DNA from: a virus
Virus record (IMG/VR): IMGVR_UViG_3300029448_000230
Coordinates: 1-31,202 of that record
DNA: 31,202 nucleotides
Direction: 5' to 3' (one strand)
Shown here in pieces: positions 5,401 through 28,424 of the stretch; the stretch's first letter is position 1, and each line of letters begins with the position of its first letter. A program made the position numbers and the translations under genes. The notes under the pieces were generated by a model. It was not told where the DNA came from. It worked only from the letters and a program-made list of their open reading frames with translations, and did not search any database.

Positions 5401-5749
5401 CAGAAACGGATGTAAAAGAACCACTTATATCACTAGCTATCTGTGCCGATGAACTTACAACCGAACCTTCAGCCTCACCCTCTTCAGCGGTTAGTCTTAG
5501 AGCTAAACTTTCAGATACGGCTGTAAATGAACCACTAATATTATCTGCTATCTGCGCCGAACCTGATATAACACCATTAAATGTACCAGTAAAATTATCT
5601 GCCGTAATATTACCACTACCACTAATATCACCGCTGGCGGTCACACTACCTTGAAAGTCAGAACTACCTATAAGTGTCTGAGTTGAACCAGACAGTATAA
5701 ATGAGCCTGTTAATTTAGGATTTAGTTGTTTGCTGTCTAATAAAGCCAT
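2474..5749 (-). CDS. Large repetitive tail-fibre-type protein (1091 aa)
   Basis: A 1091-residue Ser/Ala/Ile-rich protein built mainly from copies of a ~55-60 residue unit: [SG]SAQ[IL]AxDISGS, a linker such as LGDNADVIRSLDR, TISGSFTxxSxSLxSRLTxEE, then acidic EGEAEGS. I count 15 copies of the AQ/SQ-[IL]-x3-ISGS element. The AQ...SRLTAEE phasing suggests alternating beta turns and short coiled coils in a trimeric fibre. Two non-repeat inserts break the array: a cupredoxin-like domain (about residues 285-395) and a segment near residues 610-680 with the element GTLTAQEVHTAFESASI shared by three neighbours. ATG at 5749 lies inside the end of the upstream zinc-finger gene (35-bp overlap). No catalytic enzyme domain seen. 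Structural role likely; receptor specificity unknown. Confidence 0.8.
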   Translation of the reverse strand: MALLDSKQLNPKLTGSFILSGSTQTLIGSSDFQGSVTASGDISGSGNITADNFTGTFNGVISGSAQIADNISGSFTAVSESLALRLTAEEGEAEGSVVSSSAQIASDISGSFTSVSESLALRLTLEEDEAEGSVVSSSAQIAVDISGSLGVNADVIRSLTRPTISGSFTESSSSFSTRVTDVEAGSTSKTLVSSSAQIADEISGSIANPTVNISGSATSTGSFGRVEAGGTVSADAFVSTTGGATIDFNDDVSLAGSLTTTGKIELGREPVQGFNYLARLAEGKLSSAASAHTFTATAATKTSNHPYKDSGSSQGYIIDGVETPFLYLTEGYYKFDYSGATSHPIRFYFDAAKTTQYNPSTHVSVDGNVITLLIDKDSPQIIYYQCSSHGYMGWAIHTGQNALVQDINGFRTLVSGSAQLAADISGSLGDNAAVIRSLDRTTISGSFTAVSESIASRLTAEESEAEGSVVSSSAQIAADISGSFSKEHLGDKVANVVTSSAQIATDISGSSTALSASLSTRLTTFDITQIDIDGADDIGAAIVDADLFILDDGAGGTNRKATMSRLKSYMGDISGGSTLGNIQVGVTAASEVDTSAGNLTLDSAGGTVVIDDNLQVSGVTTIGDVTVTGTLTAQEVHTAFESASILFTSGSTKFGNSMDDVHNITGSVNTTGSMSADSFEGTFVGALSSSAQISADISGSFSKEHLGANVANVVTSSAQLAADISGSLGSNASVIRTLTRDTISGSFTTTSSSLASRITIAEDELENTLVSGSAQLAADISGSLGSNADVIRSLDRTTISGSFTSVSSSLASRITAEEAEAEGSVVSSSAQIAADISGSLSNAAIGNLEVGIVSGSSQLAADISGSLGDNADVIRSLTRETISGSFTSTSSSLASRITTAEDELGETLVSGSAQLAADISGSLGANAAVIRTLTRDTISGSFTSVSESISSRLTAEEGEAEGSVVSSSAQIAADISGSLGDNADVIRSLDRTTISGSFNAVSASLASRITSEEGEAEGSVISSSAQIAADISGSVVNPSGNISGSATSTGSFGEVQVGGMSIESLTTFSSSVATKLDTLDGDIIALSIALG
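2640..5575 (-). repeat. Array of ~55-60-residue ISGS fibre repeats
   Basis: Fifteen protein-level copies of [SG]S[AS]Q[IL]xxx ISGS within one gene, most followed by TISGSFTxxSxSLxSRLT. At DNA level the copies are similar but diverged at third positions, so the array is old rather than a recent slippage product. It is interrupted by the domains at roughly 4565-4897 and 3700-4060. Confidence 0.8.
4565..4897 (-). other. Cupredoxin-like domain inside the fibre protein
   Basis: About residues 285-395 of the 1091-aa protein have a sequence character unlike the flanking repeats: aromatic beta strands (TPFLYLTEGYYKFDY, HPIRFYFD, VITLLIDKD, PQIIYYQCSSHGYMGW). His343, Cys386, His389 and Met392 are laid out as H-(42 residues)-C-x2-H-x2-M. 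Type I copper proteins such as plastocyanin use H-(46)-C-x2-H-x4-M, so the layout is close, though the last loop is shorter. Related C-x2-H-x2-M segments occur, from memory, in other marine phage structural proteins. Copper binding is not established. Confidence 0.5.
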
Positions 5750-10325: not shown

Positions 10326-11969
10326 TTAGACTTTATCAATATCTGCTATTCTTACTAATCCGTAGAATTCAGGACGTACCATCTTCTTAGCGTAACGAGT
10401 CATCACACCTTTACGTGGAGTAAAGTTGGTTGGGTCGTATACTAATGGTGTCATAATCATTGGGACGTAAGGTGCGTACACCGCGCCAGTTTCTAAGAAA
10501 TTACTTCCTCTGAAACCACAAAGAATTACGTTCTCAAACTGATATGGGTTCTTGTAAACAGTATATCTGTTATTCAAGAGACCAGCTTTTTGAACGCCCA
10601 TTGCGTAGTTTCCACCAGCTGCATCGCCATCTGAAGATGTTGCGTATCCAGGAATTGATTCCAAGATAGTAGCAGTTTCAGGACTTACAACGATGAAGTT
10701 AGCTCCACCACGTAGGGTCTTTTGATGAATTGCGTTGGAAACAGACTGTATCTTGTTACCAAGAGTCTGGAACCACTCACCTTTTGTGTATGCATTTGAG
10801 TTTGCTGAAGTTTCTTCAAACAGGCTAGTAGCCGAGTTAAACTCAAATCCAACCTTTGCAGAATAGTTTTCTGTCTTAGCAGTTGCATTGCTTCTTAACA
10901 TATCTAAGATTTCTAAATCAATTTCCATTGATACGTACTCAGATAGTAAAGCAGTCAATTCTGCTTCAGCGTCTACACTATGGTATGCATTAAGGTCTTG
11001 AGCCAACTCAGGTGTCCATACAGCTTTCAACTTTCTTGTCTTAGCGACAATAGGAATTGAACGCATTTGTATATCAATCTCAGGTATACCTGCATCTGAT
11101 TCTGCGCCAGTACCACTTGCAGTTGCTTCAAAGTCACCTCTTGTTGAATCGGTTGGTTGCTTATGATAATCAACCACCACGTTACCAACGAGTGTTTGAG
11201 CTCTGTCTTTTCTAACGATAAATGAGATTTCAGTTTCAGCTGCATTCAATTTTGTATGTGCAGGAAAGAACTCATCAAAGTTCGAACCAGAAATGTTGAA
11301 TGCTCTAACACCTTCAGGGTCGAAACCACTTAAAGCTGCTGTAGCAACTGTGACTTTCATTAATCCATTATCAGCATCAGCACCTGCCGACATTGATGCG
11401 GATAGGTCTGGTTCAAAGTCGATATCATCGAAAGTTACCGAACCAGTAGCATAGTTGCCATCTGCTGCGGAAGCTGCTTTTGATTGGGCTGCTGATGAAG
11501 TGTCATTTGCTGAGTAAGCGAAACGACCTGCACCATATAGTCCAGATGTTGGGTCGCCAGAACCTGAAGTGAGACCGAATACATCGTTACCACTTGTAAA
11601 TCCACCTTGTGCTGTTCCATACTTGAAATCAAGATAGAAAATCAGACCTGATGGTAGGTTCATTGGCTGAACAGAAACAAACTCTTGTGCGGCTAGCTCA
11701 CCAAAGATTTTTCTGACCAATGGTAAAGCAACGCCTGACCATTGTTCTGAATCACTATTGGTTCCTGCTTGAGATGCCTCGTCAATTAACTGACGTGCTT
11801 GGTTCTCAAGTAGGACTGCCATACCGTGAGTTTTCTGCTCATCTTGGAGTCCTTCTAAAAGTCCTGTGGATTCCCACTTTTTGACTAGACCTTTAGTTTC
11901 TTCCATTCGCTGACGGACAGGATTATATCCATCCATCAACTTTTCGATAGTGCCTAATTTATTTGACAT
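10326..11969 (-). CDS. 23: Major capsid protein gp23
   Basis: 547 residues against 521 in T4. The N-terminal delta region (helical, acidic) ends in NQARQLIDE, with predicted prohead-protease cut after Glu64 (T4 gp23 is cut after Glu65). After it comes the mature shell sequence including LPLVRKIFGELAAQEFVSVQPMNLPSGLIFYLDF, matching the T4 VQPMNSPTGQVF segment. Further hallmarks are IPEIDIQMRSIPIVAKTRKLKAVWTPELAQDL and FIVVSPETATIL. ATG at 11969 has GGAGA upstream. It follows scaffold gp22 by 23 bases and is closed by a strong terminator, so scaffold and shell form one unit. HK97-fold shell subunit; high confidence. Confidence 0.97.
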   Translation of the reverse strand: MSNKLGTIEKLMDGYNPVRQRMEETKGLVKKWESTGLLEGLQDEQKTHGMAVLLENQARQLIDEASQAGTNSDSEQWSGVALPLVRKIFGELAAQEFVSVQPMNLPSGLIFYLDFKYGTAQGGFTSGNDVFGLTSGSGDPTSGLYGAGRFAYSANDTSSAAQSKAASAADGNYATGSVTFDDIDFEPDLSASMSAGADADNGLMKVTVATAALSGFDPEGVRAFNISGSNFDEFFPAHTKLNAAETEISFIVRKDRAQTLVGNVVVDYHKQPTDSTRGDFEATASGTGAESDAGIPEIDIQMRSIPIVAKTRKLKAVWTPELAQDLNAYHSVDAEAELTALLSEYVSMEIDLEILDMLRSNATAKTENYSAKVGFEFNSATSLFEETSANSNAYTKGEWFQTLGNKIQSVSNAIHQKTLRGGANFIVVSPETATILESIPGYATSSDGDAAGGNYAMGVQKAGLLNNRYTVYKNPYQFENVILCGFRGSNFLETGAVYAPYVPMIMTPLVYDPTNFTPRKGVMTRYAKKMVRPEFYGLVRIADIDKV

Positions 11970-14146: not shown

Positions 14147-14488
14147 TTAGTTTCTAAGTTTTCCACGTTTCATATATCTACGGAATCCATCCCTCACCCT
14201 ATTCCAAAGGGTTCTCATTAATTCTATTTGACCTGTACCAGCCCTTTTAGCTGGCCCACTCATTATAGCTCTCTGTAAATCTAAAGCATCATATCCACCT
14301 GCTTTAACACCATCCATCATTACCCTAATTGCTTGTGCTGATGCCTTACCGATAATCTTACCAATCTTCATCACATCCTTTTCTGCTAGTCTTCGGGCTT
14401 CTATAGAACTAAAAGGTAATTGTGATGGTGAGTCCAATGGAGCCTCACTTATTTCCATTAATCTTTTATATGATGTTTTGTTTTTCAT
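14147..14488 (-). CDS. Small basic protein with capsid-targeting-like leader (113 aa)
   Basis: Begins MKNKTSYKRLMEISE followed by APL, which looks like a T4 capsid-targeting sequence ending in a hydrophobic-x-Glu cut site (I-S-E before A16). The remainder is strongly basic and helical (KIGKIIGKASAQAIRVMMDG; C-terminal RVRDGFRRYMKRGKLRN), consistent with an internal DNA-associated head protein. ATG overlaps the preceding TAA by one base. No family recognised; the internal-protein role is inferred from leader, charge and location. Confidence 0.6.
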   Translation of the reverse strand: MKNKTSYKRLMEISEAPLDSPSQLPFSSIEARRLAEKDVMKIGKIIGKASAQAIRVMMDGVKAGGYDALDLQRAIMSGPAKRAGTGQIELMRTLWNRVRDGFRRYMKRGKLRN

Positions 14489-15051
14489 TATTTATTTCTA
14501 TTTAAAGCATCTAATATATCAGAAACTCTAAAATTATCCTTTTCGATATAATATTTATCCTCACGATTCTTCAAGATTTTTTTAATAATATTTTTCTCAC
14601 CCGCTGTAATCTTGTATGGTTTTTGTTTTTGTAACGATTTCTCTCGTTCTACACCACCACCTGAATAGTAAGGGTCTTGATGAGCAAATTTTGGTTTAGT
14701 TACGAAAGTAACAATTTTAGATGAAGCGTCTCGGGCGGCGGGGAAATTATCTGTTACCAAAGTTATCTCCTCACCTTTATTATCTTTTTCTTTATATGCA
14801 AAGCCTGCATCTGTTTTTTGTTCATTTAATCCTTCAACCACAGGTATTAAGTAAGCACCCTTTACCATATCCAATCCAAAAGGATTTCTACCAGTGCCGT
14901 GTGATTTATTTCTTGTAAGTAGGTTATACATTGTAACATTCTTCCCACCGACCTTGGTTTTAACCTTTTTAATCTTGTAAACCTTAGCACCACCAGTGTC
15001 CTTCATGGATTTCACTTTTTTTATACCATCTGCTTTAGAATATAATTTCAT
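14488..15051 (-). CDS. Internal-protein candidate with internal LNE site (187 aa)
   Basis: Lys-rich and beta-patterned N-terminal module (KVYKIKKVKTKVGGKNVTMYNLL), then VVEGLNE with a candidate gp21 cut after Glu77, then a second module (DNFPAARDASSKIVTFVTK) ending in a helical tail (FRVSDILDALNRNK). Starts ATG in a TAATG overlap and ends in another TAATG overlap with the 113-aa gene. Unlike its neighbours it lacks an N-terminal MIKL leader. Function not recognised. Confidence 0.55.
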   Translation of the reverse strand: MKLYSKADGIKKVKSMKDTGGAKVYKIKKVKTKVGGKNVTMYNLLTRNKSHGTGRNPFGLDMVKGAYLIPVVEGLNEQKTDAGFAYKEKDNKGEEITLVTDNFPAARDASSKIVTFVTKPKFAHQDPYYSGGGVEREKSLQKQKPYKITAGEKNIIKKILKNREDKYYIEKDNFRVSDILDALNRNK

Positions 15052-15344
15052 TAAAATGCTCCGTAGATATCATCATAATTATCGTATGTTCTCTTAGCTA
15101 ATTGAAAAAACTTCTTATCAACATCATCTCTATATTTCATCAACCCTCTTGGCATACTTCCCTCTCTATCCGCAATCATCTTAATACCTTGATAAATGTT
15201 CTGATATTTGAGATTGTTCATAGCTTTAGCTAATTCCATCCGTGCTCCATTATGGTCATTTCTATCGGTCATTTTAGCTATGTCATCAACGATAGATTTG
15301 GATAGTTCTTTTTTCTCTGTCAGTATATCTTGTAATTTAATCAC
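15051..15344 (-). CDS. MIKL-leader small protein, copy 2 (97 aa)
   Basis: Starts MIKLQDILTE, then KKELSKSIVDDIAKMTDRND. The same length and residue pattern occur in the preceding 97-aa gene: KK near residue 11, IA-x-M, N-x-H near residue 30, an AR-x-E, R-x-L/M-x-K...RD-x2-DK-x2-F-x-L-x-K. These are tandem paralogues. The start is GTG overlapping the previous TGA (GTGA). The leader with L-T-E resembles a capsid-targeting sequence removed by gp21. Probable packaged internal protein (inference). Confidence 0.6.
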   Translation of the reverse strand: MIKLQDILTEKKELSKSIVDDIAKMTDRNDHNGARMELAKAMNNLKYQNIYQGIKMIADREGSMPRGLMKYRDDVDKKFFQLAKRTYDNYDDIYGAF

Positions 15345-15634
15345 TTTAATGCCTTTGTAACATCATTAGGATTACTTGTCATGCTCTTGACAAGTTTAAA
15401 TAAATTTTTATCCGCTAAATCACGAACTTTTCTCAATTCACGTGGATAGTTTAGACTTAATTCTAACTTGTAGATATGGTTGTAAACCTGTGACATAGAT
15501 TTGTGAGGTAATCTATCTGCAACTTCTATTCTTGCTATTGTAGAATCGTGTTTGTTTTTGTTCATTTGTGCAATCATTTCTAAATTACCTTTGAAATCTT
15601 TTTTCTCATTTAACATATTTTTTAGTTTAATCAT
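15341..15634 (-). CDS. MIKL-leader small protein, copy 1 (97 aa)
   Basis: Starts MIKLKNMLNE, then KKDFKGNLEMIAQMNKNKHD. Paralogue of the following gene over its whole length; lysine-rich and helical. ATG overlaps the previous TGA (ATGA, 4 bases). Candidate gp21 cut after Glu10 (L-N-E). Function of the mature part unknown. Confidence 0.6.
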   Translation of the reverse strand: MIKLKNMLNEKKDFKGNLEMIAQMNKNKHDSTIARIEVADRLPHKSMSQVYNHIYKLELSLNYPRELRKVRDLADKNLFKLVKSMTSNPNDVTKALK

Positions 15635-16812
15635 GATAATTTTACCTGTCTACCAAATTTGTTCCATAGTTTACCCATGAACACATATAGTTGTTTTTCA
15701 CTCATTTTGTCAATTTTATCTTTTGAGTTTTGTGGTGCCTTATCGTATACCGCTTTAAATAATCCAGCGGTCATACCATCTACGGTTCTACCTGCAATCT
15801 TTCCAAATGATTTTTCATCCGCCATCTTTAAAACCTTTTCAACACCCTTACCTTCATTTACGGATTCACTTTTTACTTTAATATTTTTCATATTTGATTG
15901 TTTATCAAGAAACATTATTACGTGAGTTTTTTCCAAACTTTTTGCATATCTCAGAGCTAATATTTTACTTTTGAATTCTTCGGCTTCAGGTTTATTAGTC
16001 GTACCCTTTTTCTGACTTAATACGTAAAAATTTTCATTTATGGATTCATTATACCTTTTGTTTTTCAACATCTTCTTCATTTCGGTAGCTTTATCATAGA
16101 TGTATTCTATCTCAGGTAAAACCCTATTATCTTCCTGTTTCTTTATACCTTTGTTTAAATCTTTCAAAGCTACCGTAATACTGTATGCAGCTTTTCTAAG
16201 GAAGTAATAACCTGCAGATGTTATGTCTTCATTTACGGATTCGGCTGGATTCATAATGTAATCACGAGACTTACCAACATAATCTTTAGCTAGTGTAATC
16301 TTATCAGTCCACCAGCTTGGTAGTGAGTCCTCATTGGATAAACTACGTAGTGCATTAAGTGTGTCCATAGCATCTTTTATAATCAGTTTGAGTTTTCTCT
16401 CAGCTGATGCTACGTCTGTGTGTCCATCTTCTTTAAGGTTTTCAACAACACTCATTTTTCCATTAGATTTAACTCTGATAAGATTCATCTTACCATATTT
16501 CTTACCCATTTTCTTCATCTGTTTCTTAACTTTATTTAAGTTATTATCCTTGAAGTAAACTTGGTCATAGTCTTGTTTTCTATCATCGTACTTATCAACT
16601 ATAGCAAACACATCTTCATTCATGTTTTCACTTCTTACCTTGTTAGGTAGACCTTTATGTTTTGTAGAAGCCATTTTTTTAGTTGACTTCTTTTTCATTG
16701 ATTTAGCCGCGTCCTTTACTGCCTGACTGACCTGACTCGCTGGAACCTCACCCTTTTTATAAGCGTGAACCAATCCCATAAATCTTTGTTGTGCTTTACT
16801 TACTGATGGCAC
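15631..16812 (-). CDS. Modular internal protein, candidate prohead-protease polyprotein (393 aa)
   Basis: Begins at GTG overlapping the previous TAG (TAGTG). Residues 1-66 (MPSVSKAQQRFMGLVHAYKK ... TKHKGLP) match the short bacterial/phage family I recall as DUF3008. Five Glu linkers then recur: NMNE66, NLKE128, SVNE195, SINE260 and SVNE320. They divide the protein into modules of about 66, 62, 67, 65, 60 and 73 residues. Module 3 contains DGHTDVASAERKL and LPSWWTDKITLA, which I recall as a recurring stand-alone block in marine phage head genes. All linkers fit the T4 prohead-protease rule (hydrophobic-x-Glu). The arrangement suggests one translated precursor cut into six head peptides. Confidence 0.65.
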   Translation of the reverse strand: MPSVSKAQQRFMGLVHAYKKGEVPASQVSQAVKDAAKSMKKKSTKKMASTKHKGLPNKVRSENMNEDVFAIVDKYDDRKQDYDQVYFKDNNLNKVKKQMKKMGKKYGKMNLIRVKSNGKMSVVENLKEDGHTDVASAERKLKLIIKDAMDTLNALRSLSNEDSLPSWWTDKITLAKDYVGKSRDYIMNPAESVNEDITSAGYYFLRKAAYSITVALKDLNKGIKKQEDNRVLPEIEYIYDKATEMKKMLKNKRYNESINENFYVLSQKKGTTNKPEAEEFKSKILALRYAKSLEKTHVIMFLDKQSNMKNIKVKSESVNEGKGVEKVLKMADEKSFGKIAGRTVDGMTAGLFKAVYDKAPQNSKDKIDKMSEKQLYVFMGKLWNKFGRQVKLS

Positions 16813-17294
16813 TATTCTTCTTCTTGTTTATCAGCTATCTTGATACTATCTTTTCTGTTTATGATTTCCATAATATGAAGTTTTAGAAAGCTTGTATCCC
16901 TCTCAAAATCATCATTAATCATACCACCGATACGACCTAACTGATAGGATACTATATTAATAATCTCCACACCCATGTCGATTGGGTCATGGTCTAACTC
17001 CTCACCCCTAACAACCTGTTTTTCCATCTCGAACAGATGGTCGAGTTGTTTTGCTGAACTAATAATTAAATCTTGTGCATCTGTATTATCCACATCCTTT
17101 ACTAATCGTTTGTAAAGGATTACAGCTGACTGACAAATATCAAAGTGCTCTGTCTGATAATCTAAAATCTTTATGTTTTCACCACCACCAAAGTGTTCTG
17201 GTTCATCTTGTTCCAATCTTAGGGTTGGTAATGCTTCACCAAACTTACGACCAGTCCAATAATTTTCATTCATTATATTTTTTAACTTAATCAT
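16812..17294 (-). CDS. MIKL-leader internal protein with RKFGEALPTL (160 aa)
   Basis: Starts MIKLKNIMNE, candidate gp21 cut after Glu10, then NYWTGRKFGEALPTLRLEQD. The RKFGExLPTL block is shared with the gene just upstream, which has the same leader, so the pair is paralogous at the N-terminus. The remainder is an acidic helical region (ILYKRLVKDVDNTDAQDLI; EIINIVSYQLGRIGGMI) unlike its partner. ATG overlaps the previous stop (ATGA). Probably incorporated in the prohead; function unknown. Confidence 0.6.
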   Translation of the reverse strand: MIKLKNIMNENYWTGRKFGEALPTLRLEQDEPEHFGGGENIKILDYQTEHFDICQSAVILYKRLVKDVDNTDAQDLIISSAKQLDHLFEMEKQVVRGEELDHDPIDMGVEIINIVSYQLGRIGGMINDDFERDTSFLKLHIMEIINRKDSIKIADKQEEE

Positions 17295-17608
17295 TTTAGT
17301 TTCTTTCTTAGTTTAATCATCTCTCTCATAAACTTTGTAACCGTATCCTTGTAAACTTTTTTGATATCTTTAGCTAATTTTACATTCTCAGGTCGTGCAT
17401 CTCTTAAAAAAATCTGTTCTAACTTAAGCATTCTCTCACGAAGAGTAGCCTCAGCTTTTACAATTCTTTGAACTTCTTTATCAGCTGGTCTTTGTTCGTC
17501 TGGCCCCTCTTCTACCTTATCCATAATTGTTTTTAAGGTTGGTAAAGGCTCTCCAAACTTCCTATCCCAAACATATGCTTCTGATAATATTTTTTTAAGT
17601 TTAATCAT
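17291..17608 (-). CDS. MIKL-leader internal protein with RKFGEPLPTL (105 aa)
   Basis: I place the start at ATG 17608, giving MIKLKKILSE then AYVWDRKFGEPLPTL, because this matches the leaders of three neighbours. A longer reading frame begins with TTG at 17635 but adds nine unmatched residues. The chosen ATG overlaps the previous stop by eight bases (ATGATTAA). Candidate gp21 cut after Glu10 (L-S-E before A). The rest is helical and basic at the C-terminus (TKFMREMIKLRKKLK). Paralogous N-terminus with the next gene. Confidence 0.6.
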   Translation of the reverse strand: MIKLKKILSEAYVWDRKFGEPLPTLKTIMDKVEEGPDEQRPADKEVQRIVKAEATLRERMLKLEQIFLRDARPENVKLAKDIKKVYKDTVTKFMREMIKLRKKLK

Positions 17609-17882: not shown

Positions 17883-18494
17883 CTAACCTCTCATTATATC
17901 GTTAATGATTGACTCAACTTTACAATACTCATCACAACTTCTATCTTGAGTTTTATCAACTGATTCGTTTACGGGATACATAAAAGCACCGTGTGTTGAC
18001 GGATTGGATACAAAGTCAAATGCAATTAGTTCAAAATCTGGTTGTACCTCCTGCGCCTCAGCACCATTTTCATTAACCGTTTCAACCGAACCCATACCTC
18101 TTGAGGATATACCTAATTTAATACCAGATTTAAATAATTCTTTTAAAATGTTACCACTTGGTGTGCCTAATACCTCTACCTCACCCATTAGGTTGTCACC
18201 TTCAAAATGCATCTTCTTTACATTATGGGAGACGTTTTGTAGATTTACTACTGAAGATTCTGGATGGTCTAATTCACCCATAGCTCTACGTTCGTTTATA
18301 AATTCATCGGTATATTTTTTTGCTTCTCTCATCAAAATATCTTTTGGGTATACTCTTCCGTTCTGATTTTTAGATTCAGCCCTTTGTAACACACCCTTGA
18401 CTACTAACTTTCCATTATTTTCTTTTATGGATTCGTTAATTTGGTCTGGTTCTATTTCAAATGGTAGATAATCTACTATTAGTTGCTTATTCAC
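17883..18494 (-). CDS. 21: Prohead maturation protease gp21
   Basis: 203 residues, close to T4 gp21 (212). Signature blocks are NGRVYPKDIL (residues 45-54), GELDHP with probable catalytic His77, and GISSRGMG with probable nucleophile Ser130/131. These fit the herpesvirus-assemblin-like serine protease fold of T4-type prohead proteases. Possible self-cleavage sites of the same form as in its substrates are QINE21, TVNE142 and PVNE177. The start is GTG at 18494 with a good AAGGAG site six bases upstream. It cuts scaffold, internal proteins and gp23 after hydrophobic-x-Glu during head maturation. Its position among many putative substrates fits. Confidence 0.92.
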   Translation of the reverse strand: MNKQLIVDYLPFEIEPDQINESIKENNGKLVVKGVLQRAESKNQNGRVYPKDILMREAKKYTDEFINERRAMGELDHPESSVVNLQNVSHNVKKMHFEGDNLMGEVEVLGTPSGNILKELFKSGIKLGISSRGMGSVETVNENGAEAQEVQPDFELIAFDFVSNPSTHGAFMYPVNESVDKTQDRSCDEYCKVESIINDIMRG

Positions 18495-18505: not shown

Positions 18506-19153
18506 TTAGTATAGTTGTCCAACTTTATTGGCTAATTTAACCAATCTCTCACTAATTTTTTTCATGGCAACGTGGGTTCTTTTCCAATAGGTTTTAGAAT
18601 CTACGTTTAATTCATTTTTAAGTCTTACATTTATCTTCACAAGTTTATCGAGTTCATTTAATTTATCACGAACCTCTCTCATGGATAAACCAATTTTTTG
18701 TTTTGCTGTCATAGTGTCATCATTACGATAATTGTGATATTGTCCTTCATTCACATTCTCTAATCTTTTATCAATTTGTTTGGCAGCACTTGACTGAACT
18801 CTTGTAACATCAAATATATCTTTTTGTCCACCCTTTAATGATTTTGCAACTCTCATTTTTGCTTCACCTTTTGAAGTTGCATCAACTATTATAGTCGCCA
18901 TCTGGTCTACACCACCTGGTTTTAGTTTAAATTTGACTGCAAATCTAGCTTCCTTAACCTTCATATACCCACCAGCGGTTGTGATAGCTTTTTCTTTATC
19001 TTTATCTTTTTTTGATTTTGGTTTTGTTTGAAAAGCATAAGGGGTTTTCGGTGGGCCCTCTCCACCATCGAGATTACCTGTCATTGATGCCTCTTCAATT
19101 TCCTTACGAATGAGGCGTCTTATAATCTCTTTAATTTTTTCCGCTGTGGACAT
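18506..19153 (-). CDS. Two-module prohead/internal protein (215 aa)
   Basis: Starts with a basic amphipathic leader (MSTAEKIKEIIRRLIRKEIE) ending E21, before ASMTGNLDGGEGPPKTPYAF, a Gly-rich block I recall near the protease gene of other marine T4-like phages. A beta module follows (residues ~70-118), then LENVNE136 as linker, then GQYHNYRNDDTMTAKQKIG and a long helix. Cuts after Glu21 and Glu136 would release two peptides. ATG at 19153 has GGAGA upstream and overlaps the end of the preceding gene by 23 bases. Function unknown; likely prohead core. Confidence 0.6.
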   Translation of the reverse strand: MSTAEKIKEIIRRLIRKEIEEASMTGNLDGGEGPPKTPYAFQTKPKSKKDKDKEKAITTAGGYMKVKEARFAVKFKLKPGGVDQMATIIVDATSKGEAKMRVAKSLKGGQKDIFDVTRVQSSAAKQIDKRLENVNEGQYHNYRNDDTMTAKQKIGLSMREVRDKLNELDKLVKINVRLKNELNVDSKTYWKRTHVAMKKISERLVKLANKVGQLY

Positions 19154-20065: not shown

Positions 20066-21880
20066 TTATTCATTTGTTAGTGAATCAACTTCGTCAATAT
20101 ATTCATTTTCTAATTCGTTTGTCTCATTTAAAATTTTAGTCTCATTATCTAGCTTCATAGATTTTTTAAGTTTATCGAAGTGTGCTAATGCTAAAGTCCT
20201 ATTTGATTTTGTGGCGTTTTTCCTATCCACATTTCCTAAAGGGTCACGACCTCTGGCGCTACCATCTTTACCATACTTTGGTGTCTCTTTTGGTCTTCCC
20301 GCGCCTTCAAAACCACCCTCAGGTGCTCCACCTTTATCATCTAACTCATGTCCTGTTCTTCCCATAGCCATATCGGATGGAGTCCCTTGTGTTTCACCAC
20401 TTTTTGCTGGGTCATTACCCTCAGATTCTATCTGAGAACGTCTAAATTTATTTTTATAATCATCAATAATACCTGTATCCTCACTTTTTATTTCTTCATC
20501 GGTAAAATTAAATATATTTTTGTATATCCATTCCGATGATAATAAACCATCCTGTAACATTGATGATGCTAATCTTGTCTTGGAATCCCACAACTCTATC
20601 TTTTCTTGTTCGTAAATTGTAGATGGACTTGTTAGTTTTAAATCAAAGTCAATTAAATCACTATCTTGATATCCTTGTGCATATAAATGTACAATAGCTA
20701 TCTTAGTCAATTCACTTACAGATATTCTTTGTATTCTTTCGATTGTTCTGGCAAATCTTACATCTTCAGCTGCTAAAGTAGCTTTCGAACCAACATTCTC
20801 TTCAAATCCCAAGAATGCTTTTGGTATTCTCAAGGAAGATAGTAATTTATTTTTAAGATATTCAATGTCTTCAGTAGCTTCATAGGTTAAACCAGGTAAT
20901 GAATCTATACTCGTACCACTATCACCTCCTCGTACGGGTAAGAAAAAGTCCTCAGTTATATTCTGCATATTATATCTTAAGTTGTAATCACCTGTCGTCT
21001 CATCGATGATAGGTGCTTTTTTCATTTTATTTATAACCTGTTGCATATAGTTGTCAACTTCTGCTGGTGGTATGTTACCGATGTCTAACTTAAACACTCT
21101 TTTTTCTGGTGCTCTCATGATACGATGAATCAACATGGCATCTTCCATAAGTGTTAGCTGTTTATAAATTTTTCGACCACCCTCAATTTGTGATTTACCA
21201 TAGGGTAAATAATTTGAATCGGACAATAGTCTAAAGTGAGCAACCTGAAAGTTTTCTAATTCTTCTTTTGATGCTGAATTTTGTTTTCTATATCGAGATG
21301 GTTGGCTATCTGATTCTATTACAAACTTGACGAACTCAGGATTCTCCGGGTCTAAACCCTCTAATCTTGTAACGTCATATACAGGTAGAGGTACTACATT
21401 TGTTATACCATATTTTTCATCAATATCTAACTTCAAAAAGAAATCCCCATACTTACACATATTTCTAATCCAAGGCCATAGGTTAAATTCTATATTCAAT
21501 ATATCATAAAAAAGATTATGAAGTATTTTTTTAATTTGGTCATTACTTGAATTTATCGTTAAAACTTCACCATATTCTGATTTCATGGTTGACTCATCAG
21601 AATAGATATCTAAGGCTGATGATATTATTGCATCAGCATCCATAGCCTCATAATCTTGAAATAAATTCAATCTCATTGATTTTGTGGTAAGACTATCGGA
21701 ATATCCGCTTAAACCTGCACCAGCATATATTTTTTGATATCTATCTACTAAATTACTACGAGAATATGCTTGTGTTCTACTTGTATCAGCCACTCTTAGT
21801 TGTTTACCACCAACGTTTCTTACAATTACATTTGTAGAAAATAATCTTTGTAGTCTTGCAAATAAACTTGTATCTGCCAT
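20066..21880 (-). CDS. 20: Portal protein gp20
   Basis: 604 residues versus 524 in T4. Typical gp20 blocks: MRLNLFQDYEAMDADAIISS, EFNLWPWIRNMCKYGDFFL, RIMRAPEKRVFKLDIGNIPP, and LPGLTYEATEDIEYLKNKLL followed by RIPKAFLGFEENVGSKATL and RFARTIERIQ. It forms the dodecameric ring at the packaging vertex that binds terminase and, later, the neck. The C-terminal ~115 residues are a Gly/Glu/Lys-rich tail, longer than in T4, with an ILNE element that might be trimmed by gp21 (inference). ATG at 21880 has GAGGT upstream and lies eight bases after the terminase stop. Confidence 0.96.
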   Translation of the reverse strand: MADTSLFARLQRLFSTNVIVRNVGGKQLRVADTSRTQAYSRSNLVDRYQKIYAGAGLSGYSDSLTTKSMRLNLFQDYEAMDADAIISSALDIYSDESTMKSEYGEVLTINSSNDQIKKILHNLFYDILNIEFNLWPWIRNMCKYGDFFLKLDIDEKYGITNVVPLPVYDVTRLEGLDPENPEFVKFVIESDSQPSRYRKQNSASKEELENFQVAHFRLLSDSNYLPYGKSQIEGGRKIYKQLTLMEDAMLIHRIMRAPEKRVFKLDIGNIPPAEVDNYMQQVINKMKKAPIIDETTGDYNLRYNMQNITEDFFLPVRGGDSGTSIDSLPGLTYEATEDIEYLKNKLLSSLRIPKAFLGFEENVGSKATLAAEDVRFARTIERIQRISVSELTKIAIVHLYAQGYQDSDLIDFDLKLTSPSTIYEQEKIELWDSKTRLASSMLQDGLLSSEWIYKNIFNFTDEEIKSEDTGIIDDYKNKFRRSQIESEGNDPAKSGETQGTPSDMAMGRTGHELDDKGGAPEGGFEGAGRPKETPKYGKDGSARGRDPLGNVDRKNATKSNRTLALAHFDKLKKSMKLDNETKILNETNELENEYIDEVDSLTNE

Positions 21881-21888
21881 TTTTTACC

Positions 21889-23472
21889 TCACTTAATTAA
21901 CCACTCTAATGATTCTTCTTGTTTGTTGACTTTCATAGTCCAAGAATCATTCTTTTGGATTTCGTTTGTATAAATCCCTTTATGAGAATTTATATTTGTT
22001 ATTGCTGTTTTTTGTAATTCTATACCCTCTGCTCTCAATCTTAGGGCTGTCTCTCTTATCCAAAGTCCCATCGAGAAAGACATGACTAAGTCATCATTAT
22101 ATCCTCTCATAGCCTCGGCTCTACTTCCGTTATATATAAATACAAACAACTCATCAATTAATCGCTGAGAGCGAACTATTACGGATTTTTCCCTAAAAAA
22201 CTCCTCTAATTTAGCTATCACTAAGGGTCTTGTCTTTGATGTTAGAGTAAATCCAGGCACTAAGCCCTTTTCTGTTCTGTTAATCTTATTATTTACTTGT
22301 CTATGAACATCAACAACTTGTAAATCCTTACTCATATAGAATAGATTTTCATATCCTCTATCAATCACTTGTTGGATTGTTGCCCAACCAATGTTGTTAT
22401 TCTCAATAACAAGTAATGCGTTATTATATTCAGTCGCCATATTAACTAAAAGGTTACCATAATCTCTAGTAGATATTCTACCTTTATATTCAGCTACTTG
22501 TTCTAAACTTTCTACATCTAAAACGTGAAAAGCCGAATAGTCTGTTGAATCTCCTCTACTAACATCTGCACAAACTATATAATCTTTTGTGTAGTTTGGT
22601 GGTTCCCATATCCAAACATTAGAATCTACACCTCTTTTTTCAATCGGTTCTTGTAGATGTTTCTGTCTGTATTCCTCTAAGATAAGTCCATCAACCACGG
22701 ATTGACCAGATGTAATAAAATCACAATCACATTCTTGTGCAGCCATCGATGGCCCTAATAGTTTATCCTGCTCTTTTCTCCAATCCTCACCTCTATCAGG
22801 ATGAACCGTCCAATGTAACTTGGTAAAATTAAAATCGTTTAATCCATCCATCGAGTCCATCCAAGTTCTATGGAACCAATTACCTACACCATTAGGAGTT
22901 GATAAAGCTATACATTGTCCACCAGTTGATAAGGTTTGTGATGCCGCTGCCCATATCCCATCAATCTTCTCAATAAACGCTGCCTCATCAAGTATTAATA
23001 AAGATAGAGCCTCTGAACGACCACTATCCTCACCACTTGATACCGCTTTTATTTGTGAACCGTTATTATATCTTAAACTAAGTTTATTGTCTTCAACACA
23101 AGTTTGTTTCAACCAACTTGGTAAATTAGCATGCATCACCCTTACTTTTGTTACCAAGTTTTTAGCAACTTCTTGTTTTGTTGCAATTACTAAAATGTTT
23201 TTATCTTGATGAAATGTCATCATCCATAAACTATAACCAGCCGTTAAAGTTGATATACCTAATTGTCTAGCTTTTAAAATTATGTTCAATCTATTTGTGA
23301 CTAAATCACTAACCGTTTTTTCTTGAAAATCATATAAGTGAAAAGGTATCTTACCTTTTATCGGATGTTGTATCACACAATACTTTTTTAAAAAATAGAC
23401 CGGGTCAGCAGCACACTTAACGTACTCCTGCTTTATCACATCTTTTAATTGACCCTTTTTATTTCTTTCCAT
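21889..23472 (-). CDS. 17: Terminase large subunit gp17
   Basis: 527 residues; T4 gp17 has 610. The ATPase half shows a Walker A variant KARQLGIST (residues 67-75), Walker B LLILDEAAF with Asp162-Glu163, and coupling motif STPNG. The RNase-H-like nuclease half has CADVSRGDSTDYSAF with Asp303, VIENNNIGWA, and GYNDDLVMSF with Asp460/461. It drives DNA into the prohead and makes the headful cut. Start overlaps the previous gene by 14 bases. In T4 the sheath and tube genes 18 and 19 lie between 17 and 20; here portal follows directly. Confidence 0.97.
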   Translation of the reverse strand: MERNKKGQLKDVIKQEYVKCAADPVYFLKKYCVIQHPIKGKIPFHLYDFQEKTVSDLVTNRLNIILKARQLGISTLTAGYSLWMMTFHQDKNILVIATKQEVAKNLVTKVRVMHANLPSWLKQTCVEDNKLSLRYNNGSQIKAVSSGEDSGRSEALSLLILDEAAFIEKIDGIWAAASQTLSTGGQCIALSTPNGVGNWFHRTWMDSMDGLNDFNFTKLHWTVHPDRGEDWRKEQDKLLGPSMAAQECDCDFITSGQSVVDGLILEEYRQKHLQEPIEKRGVDSNVWIWEPPNYTKDYIVCADVSRGDSTDYSAFHVLDVESLEQVAEYKGRISTRDYGNLLVNMATEYNNALLVIENNNIGWATIQQVIDRGYENLFYMSKDLQVVDVHRQVNNKINRTEKGLVPGFTLTSKTRPLVIAKLEEFFREKSVIVRSQRLIDELFVFIYNGSRAEAMRGYNDDLVMSFSMGLWIRETALRLRAEGIELQKTAITNINSHKGIYTNEIQKNDSWTMKVNKQEESLEWLIK

Positions 23473-24268: not shown

Positions 24269-27200
24269 CTAAAAATTTAATAATCCTAATATTTGATTTA
24301 CGGGTGCAAATGCGCCTGTAAATTTATAAGTCTTTCCCTTATATTTAAATACAATCCCCTCTGTGGGTACGATTGATGAGAGTCCACCAATCTTTTCTAA
24401 TTTACTTAGTTGATGTTTTAAGGTCTCTATTTTTTTAATATCCCCACCACTTCTTACAGTCTTGATTGCATTTATTACATCTTTTCTAATTTTTTGGACA
24501 GCTTTTTTTGGTGAAGCAACCAAATATCCACTAATATTCTTTAGTATCTCTGCTCCTACGTCAAAAAACAAAACCTCAAATGGTTTCATATTATCTTTAA
24601 TATATTTTTTATGGTCGGTCTTATCAAATGATAAAGCCCATTCTAAAAACTTTTCATTATCTATGTCTTTTCTCATTTGTTGAATCGAATATGATTTATC
24701 CAAGAAAGCCCATCTTTTTGTTAAGTTTACCAAAATACGGTTTGGTATCTTATAACGATATTGTTTAGATGCATTAAATATGAACTCTTCCCAAAATTTT
24801 TGATGATATAGTGATAGGGTATCATTATCTTTTAAAGCATATTGTCTTTTAAGTTTATCTAATCTTGCCAAATATGTTTTTTTCTTCGTACCGAAATTTT
24901 GTGATTTTGGAACATTTAAAAATAAGGGTTTTCCTATTTTAAATTGTTTTTGTATATTTTGATTTACCTGTTTTATCATACCAGCTAACGTACGAGCTGA
25001 ATCTTTTGGTTGACCTATAGCTCTACCACTTTCATCATACTCTAAAGTTCCATGAAAGATAATCTCTGATTTATCATAGTCTATCACATTAGCCGAAGCA
25101 GGATATATAACCTCTAAGTTCATCCACTTTTTACCATTTCCGAAAACTTTATCTTTTTGTTTATCAGTTAATTTACCAACTGCTCTACTTAAATCTTTCA
25201 TCGCAAAAACAAAAGCATTTTTAATATCACCCCTACCTGCAAACTTTGCTGCTACTCCAGCGGTATCCATAGCGGTTGAACCATAATTCTTTAACTGACC
25301 TTTGTTTCTTGCAGTAACCAATTTACCATTAACCCACGAAATCATTAAGTTTTGTCCATCTAATTTTTCCGTAACGTTATCCTCTCTATTTAGTTCACCA
25401 CCGAGTCCATTAATAATTATCTGCTTTAAATCTGAAAACTTAAGATTTTTATCATCAAAAGGATGATTCATGTGTCCATATGCACCACCCTCTATTATTA
25501 ATTTAACTTCCTCTTTTAAATCTAATTTGTCTAACTCTGTATTTGCTACATTATCTTTACCAACACCACCAACAACAGGCGTTTCTACTTCCACGCCAGT
25601 TACAGATTTACCATCAGCGGTTATTCCCATCCATTTGATTAATTCATAACCTATATTTCTTAGAACTACATCGTTAATATAAGATTTGTAAGACTCAATC
25701 GGATTATTAACACCAAACCTTGAACCATAATCACCAGATTGTTCATGTCCGTAGGCTACTGCTGGAACCGTACTATAACTTAATGTATAATCATAATCAG
25801 GATTAATCGCGTGCTTTGAAAGTATATAATTAATTACCTCCCAACCTTGTCCTGCGTACATATCGTCCAACCATTTTTTAGAGAACTTCTTGTAATCATC
25901 AAATCCCTTATGAAATGTTGGTGGCCCATCATCTGTTGGTGATAATACGGTATTGCTTACCTCGGATAATAACTCGGATAATTTATTTCTTATTAAAAAG
26001 GTATCTATGCTTTCGAATAATTTTTTAAATTTATTAGTCATCATATTAAAGATACCCTTATCATAATAACCAAAAGCTTGTTTGAATAATTTTTCTCTAT
26101 CTTTTTCATAATCTGGTGAACCGAGTAATTGTCTCATTACCGTACCACTCACCTCTTTACCAGCTACCTTAACTGATTGATGTGGCGCTGTAAGAACATA
26201 CCCGTTCTCTTCATAACCACTCATGTTGTTTTTATTTTTATTATAATCTTGAAAATACTTTCCACCCTTTAATCTACCTGCATCCTTTGAACCAAAAATA
26301 TAAACAACAGCGGTCGTATCTTTATCGTATTTTTTCAAAACATTTTTAGCAACATAAGGTGATTTTTCTTGAACTATACGATTCTTAGGTATACCCATTT
26401 TAACCATATGACGAATCTTTTCCTTAAAATCCATTGGGTGTCTTGGTGGTTGTTTTATATTTGATGTAGTGATGTAAACGTCATCAACTCTTTTCTTTAG
26501 CCACTCATAAGTTTTTTTGTGGTGAGGGCCAAATGGTTGAAATCTACCACCATAGATACCTACAACCTTTTTTATTTCTTTTTGTTCTTTGATTTTTTTA
26601 TAACCACTACCATAAGGAACTGAAGTATTACCCTTTTTCTTCATCTTCTTAACAAGTTTTCTACTCGGTGATGGGACTGTTCCGTCAAAACTAAAGGTCT
26701 CTGTTTTTCCTGTATCCGTTTTTAGAAAAGGCCCTCTTCTAAGTGTTCGAAACCTAACAGGTACCTCTTGTCCAAATAATTTTTTAGGTGCTAAAATTCT
26801 GAGTGTAACTAATTCTTTAGGATTATCTACTTTAATAACTTCAAACTCTATCTCTTTATACCTTTTACCCTGATGTTTAAGATTCTTACCAGTAATGAAT
26901 TTTTCTATCTTGTTACCTCTAACCGCAAAAGCCTCTTTCATAATCTTTTGTTTTTTAATCCAATTTTTTCCACGGAAATTCTTCACTGGTTTTCTAATAA
27001 ATTTACCAACACCTTTTTTAACGAGTATCTCAAATCTTTTTTGTGCGGCTTCCTCATCTAAAGTTTTTGAATTATCAACTAACAAGAAATTTGATGCACC
27101 AAATATACCTTGATATGCACCCTTATTAGCTTGAACCTCATTCCAAGAATCTTCAACTATCTTTGGTTTTAATTTTCTCTTTCTTGCCATGTTTCTTTTC

Positions 27201-28141
27201 TGTGCAACCTCTAACTTGGTATGAACAAAAACCATGTAACAATCATATCCAATTTTTTCTAATTCTTCTTTTTGTTTTTTTATCTTACTAAATTTATCAC
27301 CAGTACCATCAATAATCATTCCCAATCTACCATTCTTATAAAGTTCTTTACGAGCCTTTGTCAATTCTTTAGCACGTGTTCTTAATCCACTATAGTCCTC
27401 ATAATCAGGGTCTGTTAGTTGTCTGAAAATCTCATCTGGCATAGCATCCAAATCAGTTCCAAATCCATACTTGTCTAACATACGTTCTAATTCAGTATCA
27501 GAGTTTACAACCTTTAATCCATATGCTGAAAGTGTTATTGTTTTTGGTATACCAAATAAACCTCTTGTTACATATGTTTTACCACTACCAGGCCCACCTG
27601 CTAAGAATACTGCTTTAAGAATACCAGGGTCATTGACACCCTCATTGACATTTTCTTTTTTTAAGACCCTAAATGTTGTAATCTTTTTACCATTGATAGT
27701 CGGCATTCCATGTTCATCTTTGTCGATTGACTTAACTATAACCTTTTTATTTTTAAATCTACCAGTAAGAATAGTATCACCAATTTTAACAGGTATGTTA
27801 ATATCTTCGTTCTTCTTTTTGGTTTTCTTTTTCATCTGATTGATGTATTTACGATACACGGCGGCTTGTGACTTTTTACCCATCTCACGAGCACGTTGTT
27901 CCATAGCTACTGCAGCTTGTATCTTATGCGCGTGGGAACGACCACTCGACTTAATTTTACTTACCGATGCTTGTGCATCTTTTACGGTAGCAAACTTAAG
28001 ACCCTTGATGGTTCCTTTTGGGTTTTCATCCGTGTATAAATCTGAATGAGATTTGGAGCCACGATGTTGTCCTTTTTTTCTTGGGACTCTTGGTGCCTCA
28101 GTTAGTATAGTCTCTACTAACCATCTTGTGAGTTTGTTCAT
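24269..28141 (-). CDS. Giant P-loop kinase / nucleotidylyltransferase / polynucleotide ligase fusion (1290 aa)
   Basis: Start chosen at ATG 28141, one base after the previous TAA, rather than a GTG at 28174. Residues 1-15 (MNKLTRWLVETILTE before AP) resemble a capsid-targeting leader. Residues 16-167: basic module with SHAHKIQAAVAMEQRA and YRKYINQMKKK. Residues 168-403: P-loop kinase, GGPGSGKT at 182-189 with Lys188, zeta-toxin/polynucleotide-kinase-like. Residues ~404-515: beta-rich. Residues ~520-710: nucleotidylyltransferase with GRFQPFGPHH (532-541, HxGH altered to GPHH) and SGTVMR (665-670). Residues 728-884: unknown, with GPPTFHKGFDDYKKF. Residues 885-1290: ATP-dependent RNA/DNA ligase pattern with KLDG (Lys926), Glu1010 in MNLEVIYP, EGIVFK (1261-1266) and K1268/K1273. 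Glu linkers at 167, 403, 727 and 884 lie at the borders. Domain calls good; biological role inferred. Confidence 0.8.
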   Translation of the reverse strand: MNKLTRWLVETILTEAPRVPRKKGQHRGSKSHSDLYTDENPKGTIKGLKFATVKDAQASVSKIKSSGRSHAHKIQAAVAMEQRAREMGKKSQAAVYRKYINQMKKKTKKKNEDINIPVKIGDTILTGRFKNKKVIVKSIDKDEHGMPTINGKKITTFRVLKKENVNEGVNDPGILKAVFLAGGPGSGKTYVTRGLFGIPKTITLSAYGLKVVNSDTELERMLDKYGFGTDLDAMPDEIFRQLTDPDYEDYSGLRTRAKELTKARKELYKNGRLGMIIDGTGDKFSKIKKQKEELEKIGYDCYMVFVHTKLEVAQKRNMARKRKLKPKIVEDSWNEVQANKGAYQGIFGASNFLLVDNSKTLDEEAAQKRFEILVKKGVGKFIRKPVKNFRGKNWIKKQKIMKEAFAVRGNKIEKFITGKNLKHQGKRYKEIEFEVIKVDNPKELVTLRILAPKKLFGQEVPVRFRTLRRGPFLKTDTGKTETFSFDGTVPSPSRKLVKKMKKKGNTSVPYGSGYKKIKEQKEIKKVVGIYGGRFQPFGPHHKKTYEWLKKRVDDVYITTSNIKQPPRHPMDFKEKIRHMVKMGIPKNRIVQEKSPYVAKNVLKKYDKDTTAVVYIFGSKDAGRLKGGKYFQDYNKNKNNMSGYEENGYVLTAPHQSVKVAGKEVSGTVMRQLLGSPDYEKDREKLFKQAFGYYDKGIFNMMTNKFKKLFESIDTFLIRNKLSELLSEVSNTVLSPTDDGPPTFHKGFDDYKKFSKKWLDDMYAGQGWEVINYILSKHAINPDYDYTLSYSTVPAVAYGHEQSGDYGSRFGVNNPIESYKSYINDVVLRNIGYELIKWMGITADGKSVTGVEVETPVVGGVGKDNVANTELDKLDLKEEVKLIIEGGAYGHMNHPFDDKNLKFSDLKQIIINGLGGELNREDNVTEKLDGQNLMISWVNGKLVTARNKGQLKNYGSTAMDTAGVAAKFAGRGDIKNAFVFAMKDLSRAVGKLTDKQKDKVFGNGKKWMNLEVIYPASANVIDYDKSEIIFHGTLEYDESGRAIGQPKDSARTLAGMIKQVNQNIQKQFKIGKPLFLNVPKSQNFGTKKKTYLARLDKLKRQYALKDNDTLSLYHQKFWEEFIFNASKQYRYKIPNRILVNLTKRWAFLDKSYSIQQMRKDIDNEKFLEWALSFDKTDHKKYIKDNMKPFEVLFFDVGAEILKNISGYLVASPKKAVQKIRKDVINAIKTVRSGGDIKKIETLKHQLSKLEKIGGLSSIVPTEGIVFKYKGKTYKFTGAFAPVNQILGLLNF

Positions 28142-28142
28142 C

Positions 28143-28424
28143 TTAGAATAATACGTGAATTGTTCCGCTGCCACTAACTTTAGATACGCCTATTTCAAAT
28201 AGAGTTTTAACCGTAAAAGCTGAAGCGGCTACTGCCTCTCCGTTAGTCGGAGTTATCACAGAGCTACCAGCTGATTCGACGATGAATCCACTTGTGCCAG
28301 ATAAAGAACCTGTAAATTCTAATTCCTCGGTTGCCGTTGTACGAACTCTGCTAAATTTAGCATTATCGACGTTGTTGGTTTTACTTCTTCCGCTTATACC
28401 ACTTGTTTGGGTTTGGGTTGCCAT
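28143..28424 (-). CDS. Small fibre-like structural protein (93 aa)
   Basis: Starts MATQTQTSGISGRSKTNNVD; then ELEFTGSLSGTSGFIVESAG and SVITPTNGEAVAAS, Ser/Thr/Gly-rich and beta-patterned like the fibre proteins at the other end of the window. ATG at 28424 has a strong AGGAGA site. It is followed after one base by the start of the giant enzyme. Probably a virion component; no family named. Confidence 0.6.
   Translation of the reverse strand: MATQTQTSGISGRSKTNNVDNAKFSRVRTTATEELEFTGSLSGTSGFIVESAGSSVITPTNGEAVAASAFTVKTLFEIGVSKVSGSGTIHVLF

Follow-up and report, generated by a model that had tools for sequence, protein, structure and literature searches.

A shuffled multi-enzyme protein among the head genes of a T4-like phage reads as a probable packaged RNA-repair polyprotein

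Why would a phage encode, among its head genes, a single long chain that joins a kinase, a nucleotidylyltransferase and a ligase-like enzyme? The question is raised by a gene at positions 24269-28141 (minus strand) of a viral sequence of 31,202 nucleotides (IMG/VR record IMGVR_UViG_3300029448_000230, positions 1 to 31,202; hereafter the window). Its 31 kb hold the head block of a T4-like phage, and almost all of the genes lie on the minus strand. An earlier note on this DNA had proposed that the product is a megaprotein that may be packaged into the head and injected. Comparison with 158 related loci (about 146 without repeat copies of one contig) leads us to a modified answer, which we hold to be probable: the protein would be a T4-like head cargo polyprotein, cut by the prohead protease and injected for RNA repair.

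Results

Layout of the protein

The gene encodes 1,290 residues from an ATG at 28141. This is a better start than the GTG that opens a longer frame (24269-28174), because it lies 1 base past the stop of the upstream gene and opens a leader common to the relatives. For convenience we number residues along the 1301-residue GTG form (P0001), so that residue n of the earlier note is residue n+11 here. All the residues named in that note are where it placed them, on the minus strand, which it had not specified: the P-loop GPGSGKT at 194-200 with K199 (its Lys188), the nucleotidylyltransferase block GRFQPFGPHH at 543-552, and the ligase motifs EKLDG at 936-940 (K937, its Lys926), NLEVIYP with E1021 (its Glu1010) and EGIVFK at 1272-1277. 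The lysine of ligase motif V is K1284.

Module boundaries were set by comparing P0001 with the 158 loci. Comparison with T4 leaders points to a predicted capsid-targeting leader (28097-28141; residues 12-26) of sequence MNKLTRWLVETILTE^A, cut after E26. It is followed by a basic module with an isoelectric point above 10 (27806-28096; residues 27-123), which ends TKKKNE^DIN and is also present in small cyanophage head-region proteins, and by a small KOW-like module (27641-27805; residues 124-178) that matches Pfam KOW weakly, shuffles among relatives and ends ENVNE^G. The P-loop kinase module (26933-27640; residues 179-414; Pfam AAA_33/Zeta_toxin) ends KIMKE^A. The AFAVRGN and PSPSRK modules come next (26585-26932; residues 415-530): both are small and basic, and each shuffles independently; the pair ends KKIKE^Q. 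The NMNAT-like nucleotidylyltransferase module (25961-26584; residues 531-738; Pfam CTP_transf_like) ends LLSE^V, and an acidic module of unrecognised fold that is missing from some relatives (25490-25960; residues 739-895) ends LIIE^G. An RNA-ligase-like covalent nucleotidyltransferase (24272-25489; residues 896-1301), recognised by its invariant motifs, an AlphaFold model and VIA-align comparison, closes the chain. All these modules lie on the minus strand. Beta-lactamase matches of residues 766-842 (E ~0.7) were taken as chance, and Pfam recognised no peptidase domain in the chain.

Protease-type sites at the module junctions

The junctions ILTE^A, ENVNE^G, KIMKE^A, KKIKE^Q, LLSE^V and LIIE^G resemble sites of the T4 prohead protease gp21, usually taking the form [LIVMF]-x-E^[A/G]. 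In T4, gp21 cleaves after L/I-X-E, and for the internal protein IPIII a stretch of 10 residues at its start is enough for packaging (PMC9026906). In the T4 record, IPII and IPIII begin MKTYQEFIAE^A, and gp23 carries the site FLTE^A. The suggestion of the earlier note that the protein opens with what looks like a T4 capsid-targeting leader is borne out by MNKLTRWLVETILTE^AP, with its [LI]-x-E site at E26, a position conserved in relatives. Under a stricter pattern, [LIVMF][NKST]E[AGSDNQ], the window protein contains only four sites (E26, E178, E414 and E530), every one of them at a junction.

The same tendency is seen across the relatives. The comparison gave 81 module starts that have Glu at the boundary and whose upstream sequences are not homologous to one another; the third residue before the cut (P3) played no part in their selection. 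P3 was L, I, V, M or F in 63 of them, against a background of 27.5% (p 8e-21), and the residue after the cut (P1') was G or A in 44. The start of the kinase is preceded by Glu in 19/19 non-homologous contexts, whether a leader or another module stands before it. Of the strict-pattern sites in 31 non-redundant relatives, 88 lie in linkers and 7 in module cores (per Glu, 0.093 versus 0.006; p 1e-24), with cores trimmed by a few residues per end so that conserved domain edges count as linker. The P3 test and the contrast between cores and linkers rule out chance Glu residues at linkers. A genome-wide control in phage HTVC008M gave no overall excess of the motif (82 found, 75.5 expected); the motif is therefore meaningful by position only. 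With such sites at almost every junction, the sequence points to a precursor cut into separate enzymes, which makes the single injected megaprotein of the earlier note less likely.

A predicted processing enzyme is encoded in the same block: a prohead protease related to T4 gp21 (17883-18494, minus strand; phrog_207, E 4e-55; PF03420 Peptidase_S77, E 2.5e-28). Four strict sites lie in the protease itself where 0.6 would be expected (p 0.003), which would fit self-processing. The major capsid protein (10326-11969, minus strand; phrog_138, E 4e-74) is predicted to be cut on maturation at LIDE^A, behind E64, where T4 gp23 has FLTE^A.

Shuffled modules, and separate leader-bearing genes in distant phages

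Among the relatives (individual loci carry L numbers) the N-terminal modules are reordered, lost, replaced or found as separate genes, giving about two dozen architectures of complete chains, and the C-terminal order NMNAT-(acidic)-ligase is constant. The kinase is its own gene directly upstream in L054, L068, L069, L073, L117, L119, L132 and L133. Some chains gain enzymes: a poly(A)-polymerase/CCA-adding head with an RNA-binding domain in L073, L133, L134, L149, L162 and L167, an HD domain in L145, L152 and L167, and a Zn-protease-like module (Zn_protease) in one relative, L119. A further module, present in 19 relatives (for example, residues 451-690 of the L040 protein), could by eye be an Ntn-type hydrolase and has no Pfam match. 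As to a cellular origin, a search of 84,980 genomes matched only 3 contigs, all from metagenome-assembled genomes (two 4.5-kb contigs and a 13-kb one), and these are probably phage sequence.

The most telling comparison is with two distant loci, L169 and L170, whose ligases are 60-65% different: there the ligase, kinase and nucleotidyltransferase are separate genes lying close together. Each has a leader of its own: MALLSYTQFLNE^KL...LLNE^GGAYGHL for the ligase, MGLKYLKSLTEFIRE^S for the kinase and MKYVNTFAEFIFE^H for the nucleotidyltransferase. These genes are followed by one starting MSLLNFFEFLNE^Q, by eye a Pol-beta-type transferase with no Pfam match, and on their flanks lie several further small genes whose leaders include MKHIKTFEGFLNE^A. 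We found no recognisable terminase or portal near these enzyme genes within the 13 kb covered. More broadly, about a dozen genes in a row at L169 3788-13214 and in L170 have T4-IPIII-like leaders (MKxxKTFEEFLNE); the row also includes a DUF5824 protein, an amidase and a RimK-like ATP-grasp gene, and resembles a capsid-cargo cluster.

Other phages offer similar cases. The stand-alone ligase of a 462-kb phage begins MKFLKSYEEFLNE^N, and leader-bearing relatives of the kinase occur as genes of their own in Melnitz (MKTFAELQE^G), HTVC008M (MIPFILKE^G) and coliphage Lw1 (MKSFKDFVSLDE^A). In Agrobacterium phage Atu_ph07, the chain MKWNDLNE^A...VTE^GVND carries the kinase behind an N-terminal region that resembles ADP-ribosyltransferases by eye. 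The gene for the kinase-bearing gp53 (a number deduced from the accession minus 94812, which gp4 and gp18 fit) lies within a cluster, coding sequences 31-76, with 29 virion proteins. Judged from these separate leader-bearing genes, the fused chain resembles a string of packaged proteins in which internal sites take the place of individual leaders. Atu_ph07 also encodes, at 39484-49507 (L177/L178), paralogous genes that start MKWEQLTE or MRWEQLTE and share a YRGM...FICST pattern. By eye this pattern suggests ADP-ribosyltransferases, with no Pfam match for the one paralogue tested; one paralogue is fused to the kinase through VTE^G.

Head-gene location and virion proteins

The head block contains genes for the major capsid protein, a scaffold-like acidic protein, the prohead protease, the portal protein (20066-21880, minus strand) and the terminase large subunit (21889-23472, minus strand). 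The head-gene location to which the earlier note had pointed recurs among the relatives. The terminase lies downstream of the polyprotein gene in 104/104 testable loci, those with at least 3.5 kb past the ligase end, at a median distance of 1.27 kb and with the portal present; about 10 contigs are counted twice, making the distinct total somewhat lower. The window terminase is closest to those of Microcystis phage Mel-JY01 (56%) and of Flavobacterium phages of the immuto group (54%). Mel-JY01, a cultured relative, also encodes the NMNAT-ligase pair.

Mass spectrometry has placed NMNAT-like proteins in the virions of S-SCSM1, S-CREM2 and other cyanophages (PMC9602691, PMC10665884), for which NAD+ synthesis was proposed (PMC9602691). 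The S-SCSM1 virion NMNAT begins MKSFLQFLKE^A.

The window has another polyprotein-like gene (15631-16812, minus strand), in which a DUF3008 module and five further stretches are divided by the sites MNE^D, LKE^D, VNE^D, INE^N and VNE^G (5 strict, 0.68 expected). In S-SCSM1 the first of these modules occurs as a virion protein of its own (ORF93, 69 residues, 63% identity). Small head-region genes at 14147-17608 and 18506-19153 (minus strand) have leader-like starts (MIKLQDILTEK, MIKLKNMLNEK, MIKLKNIMNEN, MIKLKKILSEA and MKNKTSYKRLMEISEA) and probably encode more packaged cargo; 18506-19153 also has internal VNE^G/VKE^A sites. In the cultured cyanophage P-TIM68 a short polyprotein-like gene (L182 1243-2364, AIR93449), carrying the basic module and the sites DFSE^N, RMNE^G, KVDE^S and SFME^A, directly follows the major head protein. 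Elsewhere in the window, a tail-type protein (2474-5749, minus strand) is made of SSSAQIAADISGSLGDNADVIRSLDRTTISGSF-form repeats.

A ligase-like module of a new sequence family

According to its predicted fold, the C-terminal module is a covalent nucleotidyltransferase whose nearest relatives are RNA ligases, and RNA ligation is its predicted activity. The motif residues K, D, G, R, E, E and K are invariant in all homologues, down to 34-37% identity, and are therefore not a chance occurrence; K937, E1021, E1272 and K1284 (motifs I, III, IV and V) are invariant in sets of 20 and 25 homologues and in the distant set. Motifs III and IV are separated by a large helical insert. A scan with the LR756508 ligase returned no further relatives.

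An AlphaFold model built from an alignment of 25 diverse sequences reached a pLDDT of 87.8 and a pTM of 0.84, and ranks 1-44 of its VIA-align comparison were all covalent nucleotidyltransferases (ligases or capping enzymes). The best match was the Naegleria RNA ligase (Z 8.6, 184 residues, 4.0 Å). Next to it stood T4 Rnl1 (Z 8.0), T. brucei REL1 (7.9), T4 Rnl2 (7.8), fungal Trl1 (7.5) and archaeal RNA ligases (~6.5), with DNA ligases at 6.3-5 and capping enzymes at ~5. Plain Foldseek gave borderline E-values only, the best for the archaeal RNA ligase 2vug (E 3e-3). An earlier, poorer model (pLDDT 71, weak matches, no significant Foldseek hit) was superseded through the more diverse alignment; in it, residue 47 (K937) aligned with K99 of T4 Rnl1 and K92 of the Palaeococcus ligase, the lysines named in the PDB titles. 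The structural search that the earlier note had set as a test of its ligase assignment returned members of the ligase superfamily. As no curated family covers the domain, sequence and model together mark it as a new sequence family within the known RNA-ligase fold.

The kinase, the NMNAT-like module and their possible function

K199 of the kinase is invariant among relatives. Weak profile matches link this module to PSTK, the L-seryl-tRNA kinase (E 5e-5), and to the kinase domain of C. thermocellum Pnkp (E 0.005). Pfam recognised no 3'-phosphatase domain in the window protein. For the transferase, the best PDB profile matches are archaeal NMNATs, and its SGTxxR motif is intact. The kinase precedes the NMNAT in the window chain and gave no riboside-kinase match at the thresholds used; in NadR, an NMNAT is followed by a ribosylnicotinamide kinase.

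The PSTK/Pnkp-like kinase profile, the predicted RNA-ligase fold and the CCA-adding and HD modules of relatives favour RNA end repair as the best single reading of function. These extra modules also lend support to the RNA-repair idea raised in the earlier note. In phage T4, tRNA repair against anticodon nucleases is established (PMC7824862). The NMNAT-like module fits RNA repair less easily and may serve NAD+ synthesis or take RNA as its substrate; NAD-related roles for the kinase-NMNAT pair are possible.

Discussion

The core idea of a packaged ligase-containing protein is well supported by indirect evidence. The modules, the ligase fold, the sites, the protease gene, the shuffling and the synteny are seen in the sequences or in the predicted structure; beyond this, we infer that the window protein is packaged, cleaved and injected and that its substrate is RNA. 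We propose that the leader would pull the whole chain into the prohead core, where the gp21-type protease would cleave on the C-terminal side of Glu, both at the leader and between modules. This would release a P-loop (polynucleotide-kinase-like) kinase, an NMNAT-like nucleotidylyltransferase, an RNA-ligase-like enzyme, the acidic module and several small basic peptides. The released pieces would remain with the packaged DNA and then reach the next host alongside it. There, the kinase and the ligase, joined in some relatives by CCA-adding and HD modules, would heal and seal host or phage RNA before phage gene expression, the probable target being tRNA that anticodon nucleases of the host have cleaved. 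A possible role of the NMNAT-like part is to provide or replenish NAD+ or some other nucleotide cofactor.

Several observations weigh against this proposal. The E123 junction has no hydrophobic P3, and the Glu of the ligase junction is lost in some relatives (ELLLMGG, for example in L030 and L040). Searches of the C-terminal domain against Pfam, NCBIfam and PDB sequence profiles gave no ligase match, and the Pfam matches of the kinase (Zeta_toxin/AAA_33) fit zeta-type sugar kinases too. The HxGH motif of the window NMNAT reads GPHH, with the first histidine gone, and its activity is therefore uncertain; HSGH or HNGH is kept in some relatives. The S-SCSM1 virion NMNAT is only remotely related to that of the window, and the authors who reported it point out that it may have co-purified.

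What else could such a protein be? Kinase and HIGH-type nucleotidyltransferase are the combination found in NadR, phages employ NadR, NadM and NadV for NAD+ (PMC9503650), archaeal NMNATs top the transferase's PDB profile matches, and authors of cyanophage virion proteomes propose NAD+ synthesis. The protein might then be packaged and cut to yield a cofactor kit, in which the kinase and then the NMNAT follow the NadR route (nicotinamide riboside to NMN to NAD+) and so replenish NAD+ that host defence has depleted, with the ligase-like module using or serving the cofactor. We consider this unlikely, given that the kinase profile matches tRNA(Sec) kinase and Pnkp rather than riboside kinases, that the NMNAT is most constantly paired with an RNA-ligase fold while the extra modules of relatives are RNA enzymes, and that HxGH is degenerate in the window.

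Two further possibilities dispense with injected enzymes. The chain could be a late multidomain repair enzyme that stays uncut and unpackaged in the cytoplasm, its Glu-rich linkers serving as flexible hinges; packaging is, after all, a deduction for the window phage, and T4 Pnk and RNA ligases are absent from the listed T4 internal head proteins (T4 record annotation, PMC9026906). We find this a little less credible still than the cofactor kit, in view of the linker enrichment of sites with a specific P3 preference, the leaders shared with T4 internal proteins, the invariant location before terminase and portal, and the NMNAT-like proteins in cyanophage virions. Less probable again is a role in head assembly, as part of the prohead core or as a packaging-motor helper that, for example, seals or caps DNA ends, with no effector role in the host. 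The gene does lie immediately upstream of the terminase, and the very basic modules could bind DNA; against this, DNA ligases rank below RNA ligases in the fold comparison, CCA-adding or HD modules would be out of place in DNA packaging, and in L169/L170 stand-alone leader-bearing enzyme genes lie away from any recognisable terminase or portal within the 13 kb covered.

The proposed cargo polyprotein has relatives among known systems. Like the T4 proteins IPI-IPIII and Alt, which are packaged through a leader, processed by gp21 and ejected, it starts with a short amphipathic leader that ends in hydrophobic-x-Glu, comes from a genome that also encodes a gp21-family protease and has a late head-gene context, and the L169/L170 leaders closely resemble T4 MKTYQEFIAE^A. 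T4, however, uses one gene per cargo, whereas the window phage would string many cargoes in one gene with internal sites between them. Polyvalent proteins also carry effector domains in one chain, are predicted to be injected, are shuffled and have been likened to polyproteins (Iyer et al. 2017, PMC5512222). The window protein shares with them several effector domains in one chain and coding beside virion genes, but polyvalent proteins are released by embedded peptidase domains (PMC5512222), and here a separate head-maturation protease would act at defined sites. In the giant phages phiKZ and SPN3US, whose head and ejection proteins are proteolysed, a Glu-specific prohead protease makes several cuts in a single head protein, as proposed here (PMC10052503); those cuts remove N-terminal propeptides, whereas the window cuts would part folded enzymes.

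As to the enzymes, T4 Pnkp with Rnl1, fungal Trl1 and bacterial Pnkp likewise combine a polynucleotide-kinase-like kinase, to which the window kinase is linked by weak profile matches, with an RNA-ligase fold, and relatives of the window protein add CCA-adding and HD modules. In contrast to these systems, the window protein has an extra NMNAT-like module, a helical insert, probable cleavage and no recognised 3'-phosphatase. The virion NMNATs of S-SCSM1, S-CREM2 and S-CBWM1 are, like the window module, HIGH-type nucleotidyltransferases of T4-like marine phages, but they are stand-alone genes of another subfamily (GRFNPPTVGH), without a ligase or the same kinase. Our literature search did not find shuffled cargo freed in trans by a head protease, the related reports being PMC5512222 and PMC10052503. 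T4 internal proteins and polyvalent proteins were already known; what is new is to read the chain as a polyprotein, whose shuffled modules would be cargo set free in trans by the head protease.

If this reading is true, capsid maturation would double as polyprotein processing, and one leader would import many enzymes. Any module gained between two Glu sites would become a new injected cargo, which would explain the reordering of modules across ~150 marine loci. It would also provide a reading rule for hundreds of unannotated head-region proteins, namely to split them at hydrophobic-x-Glu junctions. In its widest form, which we put forward tentatively and hold to be somewhat short of an even chance, abundant T4-like phages would package an RNA-repair kit as a leader-directed polyprotein with freely swappable modules, which the prohead protease would release in trans. 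Kinase, CCA-adding enzyme and RNA ligase would thus be at work on cut tRNA at the very onset of infection, before phage genes are expressed. The tRNA-repair enzymes could then arrive with the phage, whereas T4 must express its own after infection.

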